Part shown: in pieces, positions 31,030-64,000 of the stretch
How positions within the stretch are numbered: position 1 is the first letter of the stretch
Layout of the letters: the number at the start of each line of letters is the position of its first letter
NCBI GenBank assembly: GCA_028697205.1
Contig: JAQVFO010000006.1
Location: 1-64,000, forward strand
Length of the DNA stretch: 64,000 nt
Reading direction: 5' to 3'
Origin: Candidatus Altimarinota bacterium
GTDB taxonomy: Bacteria > Patescibacteriota > Gracilibacteria > BD1-5 > UBA6164
The notes under the pieces: model-generated
Databases searched by the model: none
What the model saw: only the letters and a program-made list of their open reading frames with translations
What the model was told of the DNA's origin: nothing
Position numbers and translations under genes: made by a program

Positions 31030-32154
31030 CTACATCAATTTTTTAAATATATCTACACTATCAAGAGCTTCCCAACTTACATCATTTCTTCAAAAGTGTC
31101 AATATGAAGCTGTTTTTTGAAAAATTGGCCTTTTTAAATCAAGCTTTTTGATTATACCATTTTGTGATAAATCAAAGTTTGATTTTACTGCTTCAATTAT
31201 TTTTTCTCTTGCAACTTTTTCAGTTCAGAAACAATCTACAAAAATAGAAACAGGTTCAACAATTCAAATAGCATAAGAAAGTTGAATTTCACATTTATCA
31301 CAAATACCTGAAGCAACTATATTTTTTGCAAGATACCTAGCAATATAAGCTCAACTTCTATCAACTTTTGATGGATCCTTCCCAGAAAAAGCTCATCCTC
31401 AATGTCTTCCAACTCATCAATAAGTATCAATTATTATCTTTCTTCAAGTTAAACCACAATCTCATTTAGGTCATCAGATTTCAAAAAGTCATGTAGGATT
31501 TATATGTAAAATAGTCTTTTCATCAACTAGATTTCACAATATTGGCTTTATAACTTCATTTATTATTCATTTTTTTATCTCTGATTGAGTTATATTTTTT
31601 CTATGTTGATTTGAAATTACAACAGTATCTATTCTAACTATTTTTCAAGCATCATACTCAACAGTTACTTGTGTTTTCCCATCTGGTAATAAGTAAGGTA
31701 AAGTTCAATTTTTTCTAACTTCTTCCAATTTCTTTGCTAATCTATGTGCAAAATAAATTGGTGCAGGCATATATGTATCTGTCTCATTTGTAGCGTAACC
31801 ATACATTATTCCCTGATCTCAAGCTCATCATATATCAACTCATTGAGCTATATTTGGTGATTGTGTATTTATAAGCAAATGTACTCATACATCATTTCAA
31901 TTAAAAGAAGCTTCTTCTTCATTGTAACCTATATCACAAATTGTTTTTCTAACAACTTCATTATAATTCACTTTTGCTTTTGTAGTAATTTCTCCTGATA
32001 CAATTACAGTTCAAGTTGTAACTAAACTTTCACAAGCAACACGAGAGTTTGGATCCTCACTTAAACATGCATCAAGTATAGCATCACTTATCTGATCACA
32101 CATTTTATCAGGATGCCCACTTGAAACTGATTCAGAAGTTATATAATATCTCAT
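31030..32154 (-). CDS. metK: S-adenosylmethionine synthetase
   Basis: 374 aa, normal length. Makes SAM from methionine and ATP. N terminus [20 protein letters not shown] carries the ATP-binding His; [12 protein letters not shown] follows with TGA-encoded Gly, and the central catalytic loops (FLINPTGFF-like and [16 protein letters not shown]-like regions) are present further on. Controlled by a SAM-I riboswitch and terminator in its 5' leader, so expression falls when SAM is plentiful. Confidence 0.95.
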
Positions 32155-32208: not shown

Positions 32209-32230
32209 AAAATTTCTATTAAATTTAATA

Positions 32231-32340
32231 ATATATCTTTCCTCTTTATAGAGGTAGGAATTAGCACCATAGCATAAAACGCAGGTTGCTGGGGTAATAC
32301 AAACGAGCCTATTCTCTCTTACCCAACTCTTGATATTTTT
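32231..32340 (-). promoter_or_regulatory. SAM-I (S-box) riboswitch of metK
   Basis: Minus-strand leader contains the S-box landmarks in order: ATCAAGAG, a GGGTAA helix and CAGCAACC, followed by GGTGCTAATTCC and a closing P1 strand (GATATATT pairing with AATATC). The adjacent terminator can form only when P1 is stable, so SAM binding should stop transcription of metK. Confidence 0.93.
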
Positions 32341-59412: not shown

Positions 59413-60840
59413 ATGGCAAAAAACAAACCATCTTGAAATATTGAAAAAAGAATAAAATTCAAGAATCCTATAGAACAAAAATTATGTGAATTATTATCTG
59501 AGTTACCAGAAAATTTTACTAAAATTGATGAAGAAAGCTTCCAAAAGTTTACAAATATTTGAACAAAGTTTTTAGAAATTTTAATTGAATATTGAAAACC
59601 AAATTTAACATTTATCCAACAAATAAAAATATATATTTCTCCTAAAAACTTAAAAAAGTTAAATCCAAAACTACCTATTTTTGTTTATGATAGAGTTTCA
59701 TATGAATTAGAATCTTGATTAATAGCTTATTTATACAAAAAATGAATTCCAAATACTTATAATGTTAATTCAAAACTAAAAGTAATAGATGAAAGAATTA
59801 ATGAGTCATGATTAGCGAATTCATTTAACGATATAGATTATAATGATCTTATAAATTTAAATAACAAAACTTTAAAATCATTAATAGATAACAAAGCTAG
59901 AGATATACCAGATAGTTATATAATTGAAATTCCCTTTCTATCAGATACAAAATTTTGGGTACTTTATAACAGAAAATGAGAAATTACAAAAAATAATGCA
60001 ATTAAAGCGGTAAAAGATTATTTTTGAGAAGATGCTCTTAATTATTTAATGGAAATTAAAGACACTTATGTAAGTATATTTTTCTGAGATAAAGAACCTT
60101 CAGACTTAAAAATAAAATCCTTAGATGAACACAGATTAGCAATTAATTCTCCAATATATAGAGATGAAATTTGAACATTAACCTTATATTGATGAGATTA
60201 TCATTTTGAAAGTATATTAAGATTATGATTAGAAAACTTTGAAAAACTAAAAGCATTGGTATTACTATGAATAGCTCCTGTTATATTAAGAAAAGAAGAA
60301 GCAGAAAAAATTTATGCAACTTACTGAATTGATATAACATCTCAAAAACAAAAAGAAAATAGTTGAGATAAACAAGAAAAAACAAAGAAATTAGAAAATG
60401 GTAATTTAAAAAGAAATTATCCTTATTGAAATTCAGTTAGATTAAGTATAGAAAATCTAATGGAGGATGATGATAAAAAAGAAGTTAACAGTAAAATTAC
60501 TCACAAAAGACTTTTACCAATTATAAAAAGACTTGATTGAACTTATTTATCTTTAAAACCTTCATTGAGGTCAAATAAATTAGCTACATTATTATGATTC
60601 ACATTAGATGTTTGAATATGATTTCCAAATAATTGAAAATGTATATACCCAGAAAAAATTCCTGATTTGTTAAATATATTAGGAGTAGAAAATATAGAAG
60701 CAGCCATAAATTTATTTAGAGAAGATTGAGAAAATGTATATTTAAGATATGAAACAATTGTTATTCCAACAAAGAAAGAATTATCTGAAGAAGAAGTAAA
60801 AGAAACAATAAAAGCAAAAGTGTGATGTTTAGTGAGTTAA
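59413..60840 (+). CDS. Hypothetical protein downstream of EAL-like gene
   Basis: 475 aa, soluble. Parts of the middle (YIIEIPFLSDTKFWVLYNRK, SIFFGDKEPSDLKIKSLD) look like a GAF- or PAS-type alpha/beta domain, but I cannot assign it. Then a charged linker (DKQEKTKKLENGN) and a helical C-terminal domain (SKITHKRLLPIIKRLD) ending CLVS. Paired with the EAL-like protein, so a signalling role is possible. Confidence 0.55.
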
Positions 60841-60842
60841 CA

Positions 60843-60876
60843 AAAAAAGTAGACTATAAATAGTCTACTTTTTTTT
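60843..60876 (+). terminator. Terminator after the 59413 gene
   Basis: AAAAAGTAGACTA-TAAA-TAGTCTACTTTTTTTT. Confidence 0.9.
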
Positions 60877-60885
60877 AATTTTTTT

Positions 60886-60972
60886 TGGTGCCCCGGGCGA
60901 GAATCGAACTCGCACTCTATTGCTAGAACGGGATTTTGAGTCCCGCGTGTCTACCAATTCCACCACCGAGGC
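60886..60972 (-). tRNA. tRNA-Leu, anticodon CAA, CCA encoded
   Basis: Minus strand. Acceptor stem GCCTCGG/CCGGGGC, D arm with GGTAGACAC, anticodon stem CGGGA/TCCCG with loop CTCAAAA, so anticodon CAA (60936-60938) reading UUG. A long variable arm and TTCGATT T loop, discriminator A and encoded CCA (60886-60888) fit class II tRNA-Leu. Confidence 0.93.
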
Positions 60973-61098
60973 AAATTAAGAGCTTGTTTATTATATATAA
61001 AACTCTGTTTTTGCAAGTTTATTTTCTTCCTATAATTTAACTTTGCATTTAGTATATTTTGTATATACTTATTAAAACTAATTTATAACTTTAAAATT

Positions 61099-62418
61099 AT
61101 GTACATATGTAATAACTGTTGAAATGAGTTTATAAAATGGCAATGACAATGTAGTTTTTGTAAAGAATGGAATACTCTACAAGAATTTAAAGAAGCAAAA
61201 CTTGATAAAAAACATTTAAAAGCTGAGAAAAAAGAATTATCAAAAATTGATGACTTAAAAAATAATGAAGAAAGAATAATCACAAAATCAGAAGAATTAA
61301 ATAATGTACTATGAGGTTGAATTGTTCCTTGATCTTTGATACTACTATCAGGAGAACCTGGTATCTGAAAATCAACTCTTTCACTTCAATTATCATCTTT
61401 TGTAGACAAGAGAATCATCTACGTATCAGGAGAAGAGACTGTAGGACAATTGACAAGCAGAGCAAATAGATTAGGTGTAAAATGAGATAACTTATCTATT
61501 CTTTGCGAAAACAACATAGAAAACATAATTGAAACTATAAAATGAAACTTGCCAGAATTACTTATAATTGACTCAATAAGTGTTCTTCATAGCGCTGAAA
61601 TTACTTGAAGCTCAGGAAGTATAAATCAAGTAAAATATATTTCTGAGATACTCCAAGATTTTGCAAAGAAAAATAATATTGCAACAATTATAATTTGACA
61701 TGTAACAAAAGATTGAAGTTTAGCTGGGCCAAAGATACTTGAACATTTAGTTGACACAGTTCTATTTTTTGAATGAGAAAGATTTGAAGATATAAGAATT
61801 TTGAGATCTATAAAAAATAGATTCTGAAGTAGTAGTGAAATAGGTATTTTTAAAATGACTGAAATTGGTTTACTTGACTTAAAAAATCCATGACTTGAAC
61901 TTATAGATAATAAAGAAAAAACTCCTCTTGTAGGTTCAAGTTTAAGTATAACTATGGAATGAACAAGACCAATTTTAATTGAGTGTGAAGCTCTTACAAA
62001 CTACACAAAATTTGGTTATCCAAAAAGAAGTGTAAGATGAGTAAACAATTCGAAACTTGATATGCTGGTTGCTATTTTAAGTAAATATACAAAAGTGAAA
62101 CTTGATTCAAGTGATGTTTATCTAAATATAGCTAGATGATTAAAGATAGAAGATCCTTCAATTGATTTATGACTTGTATGAGCTATAATTTCAAGCAAAC
62201 AAAACAAAGCACTTGATAGAGAAAGTATTTTTATATGAGAAATATCTCTTACTTGAAGTATAAAAAACGTTATGCAACTAGAAAAAAGAATACGCGAAGC
62301 GGAAAAATTAGGATTTAAAAAAATCTATGTACCAGACATAGATTTAAAATGAGATTTTAAAATAGAAATAATTAAAGTGAAAAATATAAGTCAATATGTT
62401 GAGAAAATTTGACTTTAA
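61099..62418 (+). CDS. radA: DNA repair protein RadA
   Basis: 439 aa. N-terminal zinc finger CNNCGNEFIKWQGQCSFC, RecA-like ATPase with Walker A SGEPGIGKST (Gly by TGA) and KNRFGSSSEIGIF (the RadA KNRFG motif), then the Lon-like C-terminal domain (LARGLKIEDPSIDLGLVGAI). Full length and in order. Branch migration in recombination repair. Its stop codon overlaps the -35 of the tyrA leader promoter. Confidence 0.95.
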
Positions 62419-62438
62419 ATAAAAATAAGTACTATATA
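62409..62438 (+). promoter_or_regulatory. Promoter of the tyrA leader
   Basis: TTGACT, 18-nt spacer, TATATA; starts inside the radA stop region and lies ~27 nt before the first leader ATG. Confidence 0.6.
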
Positions 62439-62464
62439 TATAAATTAATTCTAAATAATAAAAT

Positions 62465-62515
62465 ATGAATTTCCAAGCAAAAATTACTTCTTACTACTAT
62501 ACTTTTTCTTTATAA
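62465..62515 (+). CDS. Leader peptide 1 with three consecutive Tyr codons
   Basis: 16 aa, MNFQAKITSYYYTFSL, with Tyr at residues 10-12 (TAC TAC TAT, 62492-62500) and ending TAA. Immediately downstream, segments 62476-62492 and 62517-62535 are complementary, then GTAGTTTTT can pair with AAAAATAC to form an antiterminator, and the terminator 62543-62582 follows. Stalling at the Tyr codons would favour read-through into tyrA. No other gene function expected. Confidence 0.8.
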   Translation: MNFQAKITSYYYTFSL

Positions 62516-62542
62516 CAAGAAGAAGTAGTTTTTGCTAATCAT

Positions 62543-62582
62543 AAAAATACTCTTTTTGTTAACAAAAAGAGTATTTTTTTAT
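62543..62582 (+). terminator. Attenuator terminator 1
   Basis: AAATACTCTTTTTGTT/AACAAAAAGAGTATTT plus seven T. Confidence 0.85.
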
Positions 62583-62598
62583 TTTTTAAGTTTTCTAT

Positions 62599-62673
62599 AT
62601 GCTACTAAATTCAACTAAAATTCATAACTTTTTTACATCATACTACTTTTCTTCTTATCTGTACTACTTATAA
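62599..62673 (+). CDS. Leader peptide 2, Phe/Tyr-rich
   Basis: 24 aa. The second half is FFTSYYFSSYLYYL (three Phe and five Tyr), ending TAA. Next, CTTATAAGAG (62667-62676) can pair with CTCTTCTTATAAG in the terminator's 5' arm, an antiterminator. A second stalling attenuator in series with the first. Confidence 0.72.
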   Translation: MLLNSTKIHNFFTSYYFSSYLYYL

Positions 62674-62698
62674 GAGATTTTTAATATACCTATTTTTA

Positions 62699-62745
62699 AA
62701 CTAAGCTCTTCTTATAAGTAAAAGAAGGGCTTTTATTTTTATTTT
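62699..62745 (+). terminator. Attenuator terminator 2
   Basis: AAGCTCTTCTT / AAGAAGGGCTT (one G-T pair) followed by TTTTATTTTTATTTT, 19 nt before tyrA. Confidence 0.75.
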
Positions 62746-62763
62746 AATAAACAAACCAAAATT

Positions 62764-63558
62764 ATGAAAACAATAAATACAATAACGATAATTTGATGAA
62801 GATGAAATTTTTGAAGTTTTATCAAAAAAGAATTAGAAAAAATCTGATTTCAAGTAAATTCTATTCTTGAAGATACAGATGAAAATACAAAGAAAAATCT
62901 TTTAGAAAATAGTGATGTAATAATATTTTCAGTACCTATTAGAAACACAATTGATGCTATAAAAAATTTAGTTTGAATAAATCTAAAACAAAATGCACTA
63001 GTTATGGATGTAACTTGAATAAAAACTTGAATAAGTGAAGAATTAAAAAAACTTTGAACTTCTGAATTTGTTTCAATTCATCCTATGTTTTGACCAAGTA
63101 TACAAAGTTTAAACTGAAAAAATATAGTAATTACTTCAAGTGAAAAAAATACTTGAAAGAAATGGAAAATTCTTAAAAGATTGCTTATAAAAGCTTGATG
63201 AGAATTATCAAACCTATCAGAAAGTGAACATGATAAAAAAATGGCATTTGTGCAAGCGACTTCACATTTCTTAAATTTAGTTTTTTGAAATCTTTTAAAA
63301 AATCTTTGAGTTAATCTAGATGAATTAAACAATTTAGCTACCCCTAACTTCAAAGGACAAGAAGAAATATTTTTAAGAATTTTAAGATGACAATCATGAA
63401 GTACTTTTGCTGATATGGAAATAGAAAATCCAGAATTTAGAAACAAAGTACTTCCTGAAATTATTAATAGTGTTAAAAGTTTATGAGAGATAGTTTGAAG
63501 CTGAGATTCAAAACAATTTGAAACAATGTTTTGAAAATTACAAGAAAAATTTCTATAA
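62764..63558 (+). CDS. tyrA: Prephenate dehydrogenase (TyrA)
   Basis: 264 aa. NAD-binding ITIIGGRGNFGSFIKKEL, then VIIFSVPIRNTIDAI, ALVMDVTGIKTGISEEL, and the substrate-site SIHPMFGPS with active His; helical C-terminal domain (MAFVQATSHFLNLVF). Shorter than E. coli TyrA because there is no chorismate mutase part. Makes 4-hydroxyphenylpyruvate in Tyr synthesis. Placed behind two Tyr/Phe leader peptides, in line with that function. Followed 62 nt later by an unknown gene. Confidence 0.92.
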
Positions 63559-63620
63559 CCTTTCAACTTGACTTTTTTAGTTATATATTTATTATAATTT
63601 TATATTACTAATTAAACCAT

Positions 63621-64000
63621 ATGATTGCCCTCGCAGATATAAACACTAAATTTGATAGAGAACAAAATTGATTAAAAGCAGAAGAAGAAGCTATAAAGTT
63701 TATAAAAGAAGATTTAGAATTTAATTTAAATATTATTTTTCCTATTGCTTTACAAACTTTAGCTTTGCACCTAAAAATTAGATATCCAAACTATAATGTT
63801 CTTAATCTAAAAAAATTCAAAAACAAAAAAATCATATTTAGTGAATCAAAATCAAATGAATGGAAACAAATAAAAGATACTCTATGAGCAGTTAAAATTA
63901 ATTCAAAAACAAATTCAATTGAAATATTTTTAAATGTCTTAAATATTGTGAGATTTCATATCTGAAGCTGAAATACAAATTTTCCTAGACTTATGTATTC
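63621..64000 (+). CDS. Hypothetical protein, 3' end outside window
   Basis: 126 codons visible, starting MIALADINTKFDREQNGLKA. Soluble, Lys/Asn-rich. Not recognised. On the tyrA strand, so it could be in the same transcript and may belong to aromatic metabolism. Confidence 0.5.

Follow-up and report, generated by a model that had tools for sequence, protein, structure and literature searches.

How is tyrA controlled in a bacterium that reads TGA as glycine? The question is raised by a 345-nt gap between radA and tyrA in the genome of a Candidatus Altimarinota bacterium (G000; 1.27 Mb, estimated completeness 99.1%). This gap lies in the first 64,000 nucleotides (together referred to here as the window) of contig JAQVFO010000006.1 (G000:C15), and holds two leader units. 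The first-pass annotation of the window had proposed two tandem ribosome-stalling attenuators ahead of tyrA; our analysis confirms both ORFs, both terminators and their pairings, and finds them conserved in a second genome, G002. On the strength of sequence and folding models we consider it highly probable that tyrA is governed by a pair of classical ribosome-mediated transcription attenuators placed one after the other and working in series. The classical attenuation mechanism is here predicted as very probable, and a serial arrangement for the same amino acid is well supported by sequence comparison.

The downstream gene had been called tyrA, and rightly so: its product matches Pfam PDH_N and PDH_C (PF02153, 3.8e-18; PF20463, 1.3e-07), and the nearest NCBIfam models are TyrA. 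TGA is read as Gly in the genes of this genome (table 25), and 22 in-frame TGA codons fall within tyrA. The radA gene, on the same strand as tyrA, ends at 62418, 125 nt upstream of terminator 1. Neither the gene before radA (window 59413-60840) nor the gene after tyrA (63621-64000, searched up to the window end) has a Pfam or NCBIfam match. Elsewhere in the window, a SAM riboswitch (RF00162, 57.5 bits; 32230-32339, minus strand) with a terminator-like hairpin precedes a SAM synthetase-like gene starting at 32154, an ordinary arrangement.

Two leader units between radA and tyrA

62409-62435, plus strand: candidate promoter, TTGACT-N15-TACTAT (weak; read from the sequence)
62465-62515, plus strand: leader ORF 1, MNFQAKITSYYYTFSL-stop, Tyr codons at 62492-62500 (from the sequence; core conserved in G002)
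62476-62536, plus strand: predicted 1:2 protector hairpin of attenuator 1, 62476-62492 with 62520-62536, 17 bp (folding)
62515-62559, plus strand: predicted 2:3 antiterminator 1, 62515-62534 with 62542-62559 (folding, ribosome modelled)
62543-62578, plus strand: predicted 3:4 intrinsic terminator 1, then a U-rich tail (folding, terminator scan)
62599-62673, plus strand: leader ORF 2, MLLNSTKIHNFFTSYYFSSYLYYL-stop (ORF; conserved stretch in G002)
62652-62676, plus strand: predicted weak 1:2 hairpin of attenuator 2, -4.3 kcal/mol (folding)
62665-62720, plus strand: predicted 2:3 antiterminator 2, 62665-62681 with 62703-62720 (folding, ribosome modelled)
62703-62732, plus strand: predicted 3:4 intrinsic terminator 2, -13.4 kcal/mol (folding and scan)
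62764-63558, plus strand: tyrA, prephenate dehydrogenase, 264 aa (Pfam and NCBIfam)

Unit 1 contains the Tyr-Tyr-Tyr leader peptide and the 1:2, 2:3 and 3:4 pairings originally described for it, all of them in the sequence, with the ORF now refined to 62465-62515; the YYY cluster is kept in G002. The predicted folding energy of 62460-62585 is -36.0 kcal/mol, where shuffled sequences average -12.8 (z -8.45) and 0 of 200 do as well. Its 1:2 hairpin reaches -20.0 kcal/mol (z -6.0) and has an equivalent in G002. A terminator scan of 60800-64000 returned three sites where 0.4 were expected, and two of the three are terminators 1 and 2. The promoter described for this transcript survives as a weak candidate only, with a 15-nt spacer and absent from a consensus scan that wants 16-18 nt. 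Similar boxes (TTGACT-N15-TATCAT) do, however, stand 55 nt before leader 1 in G002, the distance in G000 being 56 nt. The scan itself is uninformative here, with 24 sites found against 21.3 expected by chance.

Leader peptide 2, described as Phe/Tyr-rich and followed by a second antiterminator and terminator, is likewise present, its ORF refined to 62599-62673. The FF..YYF..Y.YY pattern of this leader is conserved in G002, and its early Phe codons suggest that it may answer to phenylalanine too. While the unit 2 leader overall is not outstanding against shuffles (z -1.6), terminator 2 is (z -3.9). The 1:2 hairpin of attenuator 2 occurs in G002 in an extended version (about -11).

We folded the conformations of each leader in G000 and G002 with the ribosome represented as a blocked stretch. 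All three conformations, whose folding had been put forward as a check, are recovered as proposed in models with a stalled or a terminating ribosome. With a ribosome halted at the first Tyr codon and the 3' arm of the terminator unmade, antiterminator 1 is predicted at -10.1 kcal/mol in G000 and -8.4 in G002; moving the ribosome to the stop codon brings these values to -0.6 and 0.0, with formation of the terminator. When no ribosome is modelled, the 1:2 hairpin and the terminator of unit 1 coexist. Antiterminator 2 reaches -10.0 kcal/mol in G000 with the ribosome stalled at either the first Tyr or the first Phe codon, and -10.8 in G002 at the first Tyr; values range from 0 to -1.0 (0.0 in G000) once the ribosome is at the last Tyr codon or the stop. 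Terminator 2 itself folds at -13.4 (G000) and -16.8 kcal/mol (G002). Folding predicts, in both genomes, that a ribosome at the stop codon masks the competing antiterminator. Since the finished terminator 1 is more stable than antiterminator 1, the choice would have to fall before transcription of arm 4, which is also the case in classical attenuators. Antiterminator 1 is only moderately better than dinucleotide shuffles (matched by 13 of 1000 in G000 and 28 of 1000 in G002), and the antiterminator 2 duplex is matched by 0 of 300 shuffles in G000 and 26 of 300 in G002.

Conservation in Candidatus Altimarinus and rival readings

Both units recur in the same order before tyrA in G002, a Candidatus Altimarinus MAG of the same genus (DYHI01000025.1). 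Its leaders 1 and 2 read MKILAKITSYYYTFSFN and MQNSAKLNQFFTSYYYSTYLYGLIRDF, each closed by a stop codon and each with a terminator, and its TyrA is 58% identical to that of G000 over the aligned part. The Tyr and Phe codons, on whose conservation in relatives the first-pass annotation had staked its reading, are kept there together with both terminators. Identity is 50-58% in the spacers and, within conserved tyrA codons, 66% at the third position. By comparison, codons 6-15 of leader 1 are identical at 30 of 30 bases, terminator 1 at 33 of 36, and the FFTSYY..YLY stretch of leader 2 at 38 of 42; the 20-nt gap between terminator 1 and leader 2 retains 10 of 20. Terminator 1 of G002 shows one compensatory change of a U-A to an A-U pair. 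Terminator 2, although only 47% identical in the G000/G002 alignment, still forms a good hairpin, in which compensatory double changes have turned two U-A pairs into A-U and one U-G pair has become U-A. Within leader 2, one Tyr codon has changed synonymously and one Phe has become Tyr. The neighbours of tyrA differ between G002 and the window, so leader and gene have stayed together while their surroundings changed. Close conservation is confined to these two genomes among the 77 of the taxonomic order that were searched.

The G000 leaders contain no in-frame UGA. Leader 2 of G002 (L059 13205-13122, minus strand), by contrast, has an in-frame TGA directly after its last Tyr codon. Decoded as Gly, this extends the ORF to a TAA beyond the segment 2 core; taken as a stop, it ends the ORF just before that core. 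By our estimate a terminating ribosome would cover the segment 2 core under either reading. In principle this leader could sense how UGA is being decoded, since the reading of TGA shifts the point at which the ribosome ends. A search of public genome contigs for the TSYYYTFS codon pattern returned 11 records; among those examined (G002, one Peribacteria and three viral-contig matches) DYHI01000025.1 was the one true match, and the Peribacteria and viral-contig matches were rejected as having no leader structure. A second leader-1-like stretch in G002 (C43:21311) we attribute to chance: it lies at the end of a gene that by eye is tRNA-guanine transglycosylase-like, and has no leader structure.

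These comparisons bear on other readings of the gap. Only unit 2 might be a tyrA attenuator, with terminator 1 ending the radA transcript and leader 1 a chance ORF: radA lies on the same strand and ends 125 nt short of terminator 1, and many short ORFs are expected in an AT-rich genome. In G002, however, leader 1 and terminator 1 are found at another locus, where a separate terminator-like hairpin (AAGTAATTACAAAATTTGTAATTACTTTTTT) stands directly upstream of unit 1; with the core of leader 1 identical at 30 of 30 bases and antiterminator 1 present in both species, we regard this reading as very unlikely. It is also very unlikely that each unit has its own promoter and the two do not act in series, or that unit 1 yields a separate small RNA or peptide. 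Given the uninformative promoter prediction (24 against 21.3 expected), transcription could start inside terminator 1 or in the following gap, but this gap is only 20 nt long and poorly conserved (10/20), and unit 1 holds its place before tyrA at two loci.

Stalling might instead be caused by a nascent arrest peptide, centred around TSYY and sensing a small molecule, and not by uncharged tRNA. TSYY is present in both leaders of both species, and the leader 1 peptide is strictly conserved over codons 6-15; RNA pairing also explains this identity, however, leaders across the class share clusters of F/Y/W codons and no common motif, and leaders 1 and 2 align no better than codon-shuffled controls (298/2000), leaving this explanation with a very small probability. 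T-box, riboswitch and protein-binding leaders are found ahead of amino acid genes in Firmicutes and Actinobacteria, and hairpins with terminators would fit a known family of this sort. Yet Rfam returned no family at threshold for the region (the best by score, PyrG_leader, has 28.9 bits where the cut-off is 65) and only tRNAs in ten relatives; the T-box covariance model gave no match even at E<=10, nor did the covariance models of the Rfam amino acid leader families (trp, phe, his, leu, thr). We consider a known family extremely improbable, and continue with serial attenuation as the preferred reading.

Aromatic leaders across the class

The genes pheA and tyrA and those for DAHP synthase and chorismate synthase were sought in 353 genomes of the class, and about 137 stretches around named genes were retrieved. 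Our detector called an ORF of 8-45 codons with at least 5 F/Y/W in 8 residues and a terminator within 110 nt; the survey thus reflects the author's own detector and chosen loci, and was unblinded. It returned nearly 40 single Phe/Tyr/Trp-rich leader attenuators before aromatic genes (e.g. MKINNLSLNFFFFYFSSYFLK, MKTTTISSQSFFFSYFYYSRGK, MNASNNNWFYFYFFSA and MIQKKFFFWFFVYFSLNKRRFY), in UGA-recoded and standard-code class members, and 18 of the 40 stretches in one fetched set carry an aromatic leader. By Pfam, the genes behind these leaders include DAHP synthase, chorismate mutase-prephenate dehydratase, TyrA, a TyrA-PheA fusion, EPSP synthase and shikimate kinase; five tested downstream genes had no Pfam match, some of them opening operons with aromatic genes. 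In the standard-code genome G289 (G289:C27; L132 5396-5541), anthranilate synthase I follows a Trp leader, MSSISKKTWSWHWFSPKRH, with a terminator, so that attenuation there would cover tryptophan too.

Of 50 units, 40 have an antiterminator duplex better than that of shuffled sequences (p<=0.05). The ten that fail comprise seven before genes with no aromatic sign, two before DAHP synthases, and leader 2 of G002; candidate leaders before unrelated genes thus provide a built-in, unblinded control. Within the genus of G000, genomes with tyrA only have Tyr-rich leaders, and those with a wider aromatic set (G001, G003, G004) have Phe/Tyr-mixed single leaders. Most other tyrA copies in the family lie inside operons and have no leader, and in G000 no aromatic leader was seen before chorismate mutase or DAHP synthase. 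The comparison of leaders across related genomes, another check suggested at the outset, has yielded both units in G002 and single leaders class-wide. As judged by sequence, attenuation is a class-wide habit and not peculiar to tyrA of G000.

Two complete units in order were found in three genomes only: G000, G002 and G289. In G289, which uses the standard code and belongs to another family, MKNFLPTFWSYYFNRSRG-stop and a terminator are followed by MSTKSSLQQVPIKNFNINYWFYYYYFYRSWRQGSRM-stop and a terminator, the pair preceding a DAHP synthase-prephenate dehydratase-tyrA-aroA operon. Tandem leaders do occur in a UGA-recoded bacterium, as first described, but the connection to recoding falls away: since the standard-code G289 has its own tandem pair, the arrangement is not tied to UGA recoding. 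Judged from kinship and not from a tree, it seems to have arisen at least twice. A duplication linking leaders 1 and 2 was considered and rejected, since the two do not align more closely than codon-shuffled versions do (298/2000 in G000, 671/2000 in G002); the G289 pair is borderline (64/2000).

Proposed mechanism, precedents and metabolic setting

By sequence and folding, each unit consists of a short ORF with clustered Tyr codons and some Phe codons, a segment that stalling would free to pair with the 5' arm of the terminator, and the intrinsic terminator itself. With charged Tyr-tRNA, the ribosome would reach the stop codon and mask segment 2, and the terminator would form. When tyrosine is short, the ribosome would stall on the Tyr codons, the antiterminator would form and RNA polymerase would pass. 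Because the polymerase must pass both units, the read-through fractions would multiply, which is predicted to keep basal expression low and to steepen the response to tyrosine starvation. The single-copy version of this device would control aromatic amino acid genes in many class members.

The pheA, trp and his leaders of E. coli are ribosome-mediated attenuators. The tyrA units resemble them in having a leader peptide with cognate codons, mutually exclusive 2:3 antiterminator and 3:4 terminator, and a gene of the same pathway downstream; they differ in showing no sequence relation detectable with Rfam, in standing two in series, in using Tyr as the main codon, and in their host, a Gracilibacteria-type member of the candidate phyla radiation. 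Precedents for tandem attenuators exist, but for two different signals: the Salmonella mgtCBR mRNA leader contains two attenuator leader ORFs that respond to ATP and proline (Lee and Groisman 2012, PMC3641672). As in mgtCBR, each of two leader ORFs forms an attenuator before the same genes (a single shared leader RNA being predicted here), but the mgtCBR attenuators have no structures resembling intrinsic terminators (PMC3641672), whereas both tyrA units are Tyr-rich and have them. The tandem riboswitches of B. clausii metE, as outlined in the same source, also have sensing elements in series on a single transcript that contains two intrinsic terminators (PMC3641672); unlike the tyrA leaders, these are, in that outline, RNAs binding two metabolites, with no translation involved. 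Histidine leader peptides have been described before hisS paralogs in bacilli by comparative genomics (Naville and Gautheret 2010, PMC2965389), at a time when leader-peptide systems were known only from Proteobacteria and Actinobacteria, to which bacilli were then added (PMC2965389). The tyrA leaders likewise lie outside Proteobacteria and Actinobacteria, but the hisS systems are single units, in another phylum and for another amino acid. No earlier report of tandem leaders, Tyr leaders or attenuation in this group was found in the open-access literature, and the taxonomic setting is apparently new.

We think it likely that attenuation is a general, previously unreported control of aromatic synthesis in recoded and standard-code members of the class, and that in some lineages two sensors for one kind of amino acid stand in series, among them the pair ahead of an orphan tyrA that must draw its substrate from outside a complete shikimate pathway. 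Most members of this group are uncultured, with small genomes and little regulation known, and such control would mean that the group actively meters its aromatic amino acid genes, though many of its members are thought to live off hosts. A switch dependent on tight transcription-translation coupling implies that such coupling exists in the group. The leader codons predict, operon by operon, the amino acid to which each gene set answers, and two sensors of one amino acid in series offer a natural test of whether stacking sharpens a response.

Prephenate dehydratase and chorismate synthase were not found in G000 or G002 by searches that were positive in 14 of 14 control genomes, and the sole EPSP-synthase-family match in each is probably MurA. 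Both genomes do have chorismate mutase (G000 C3:109161; G002 C49:11694), a DAHP synthase match occurs in G000 only (C18, TIGR00034 above cut-off), and chorismate synthase is present in G001, G003 and G004 of the same genus. With these pathway genes missing, tyrA is an orphan end-of-pathway enzyme. By its Pfam identity the downstream gene does act in making the sensed amino acid, but as neither chorismate synthase nor prephenate dehydratase was found, more TyrA might not relieve a tyrosine shortage. Regulation through Tyr codons suggests that tyrA still serves tyrosine supply, perhaps, we speculate, via scavenged precursors. The neighbours of the G000 DAHP synthase, a thioredoxin-reductase-like gene and a 233-aa gene (L079 9348-12483), are also those of tyrA in G002 (L059 13675-15964), which is a rearranged aromatic neighbourhood.
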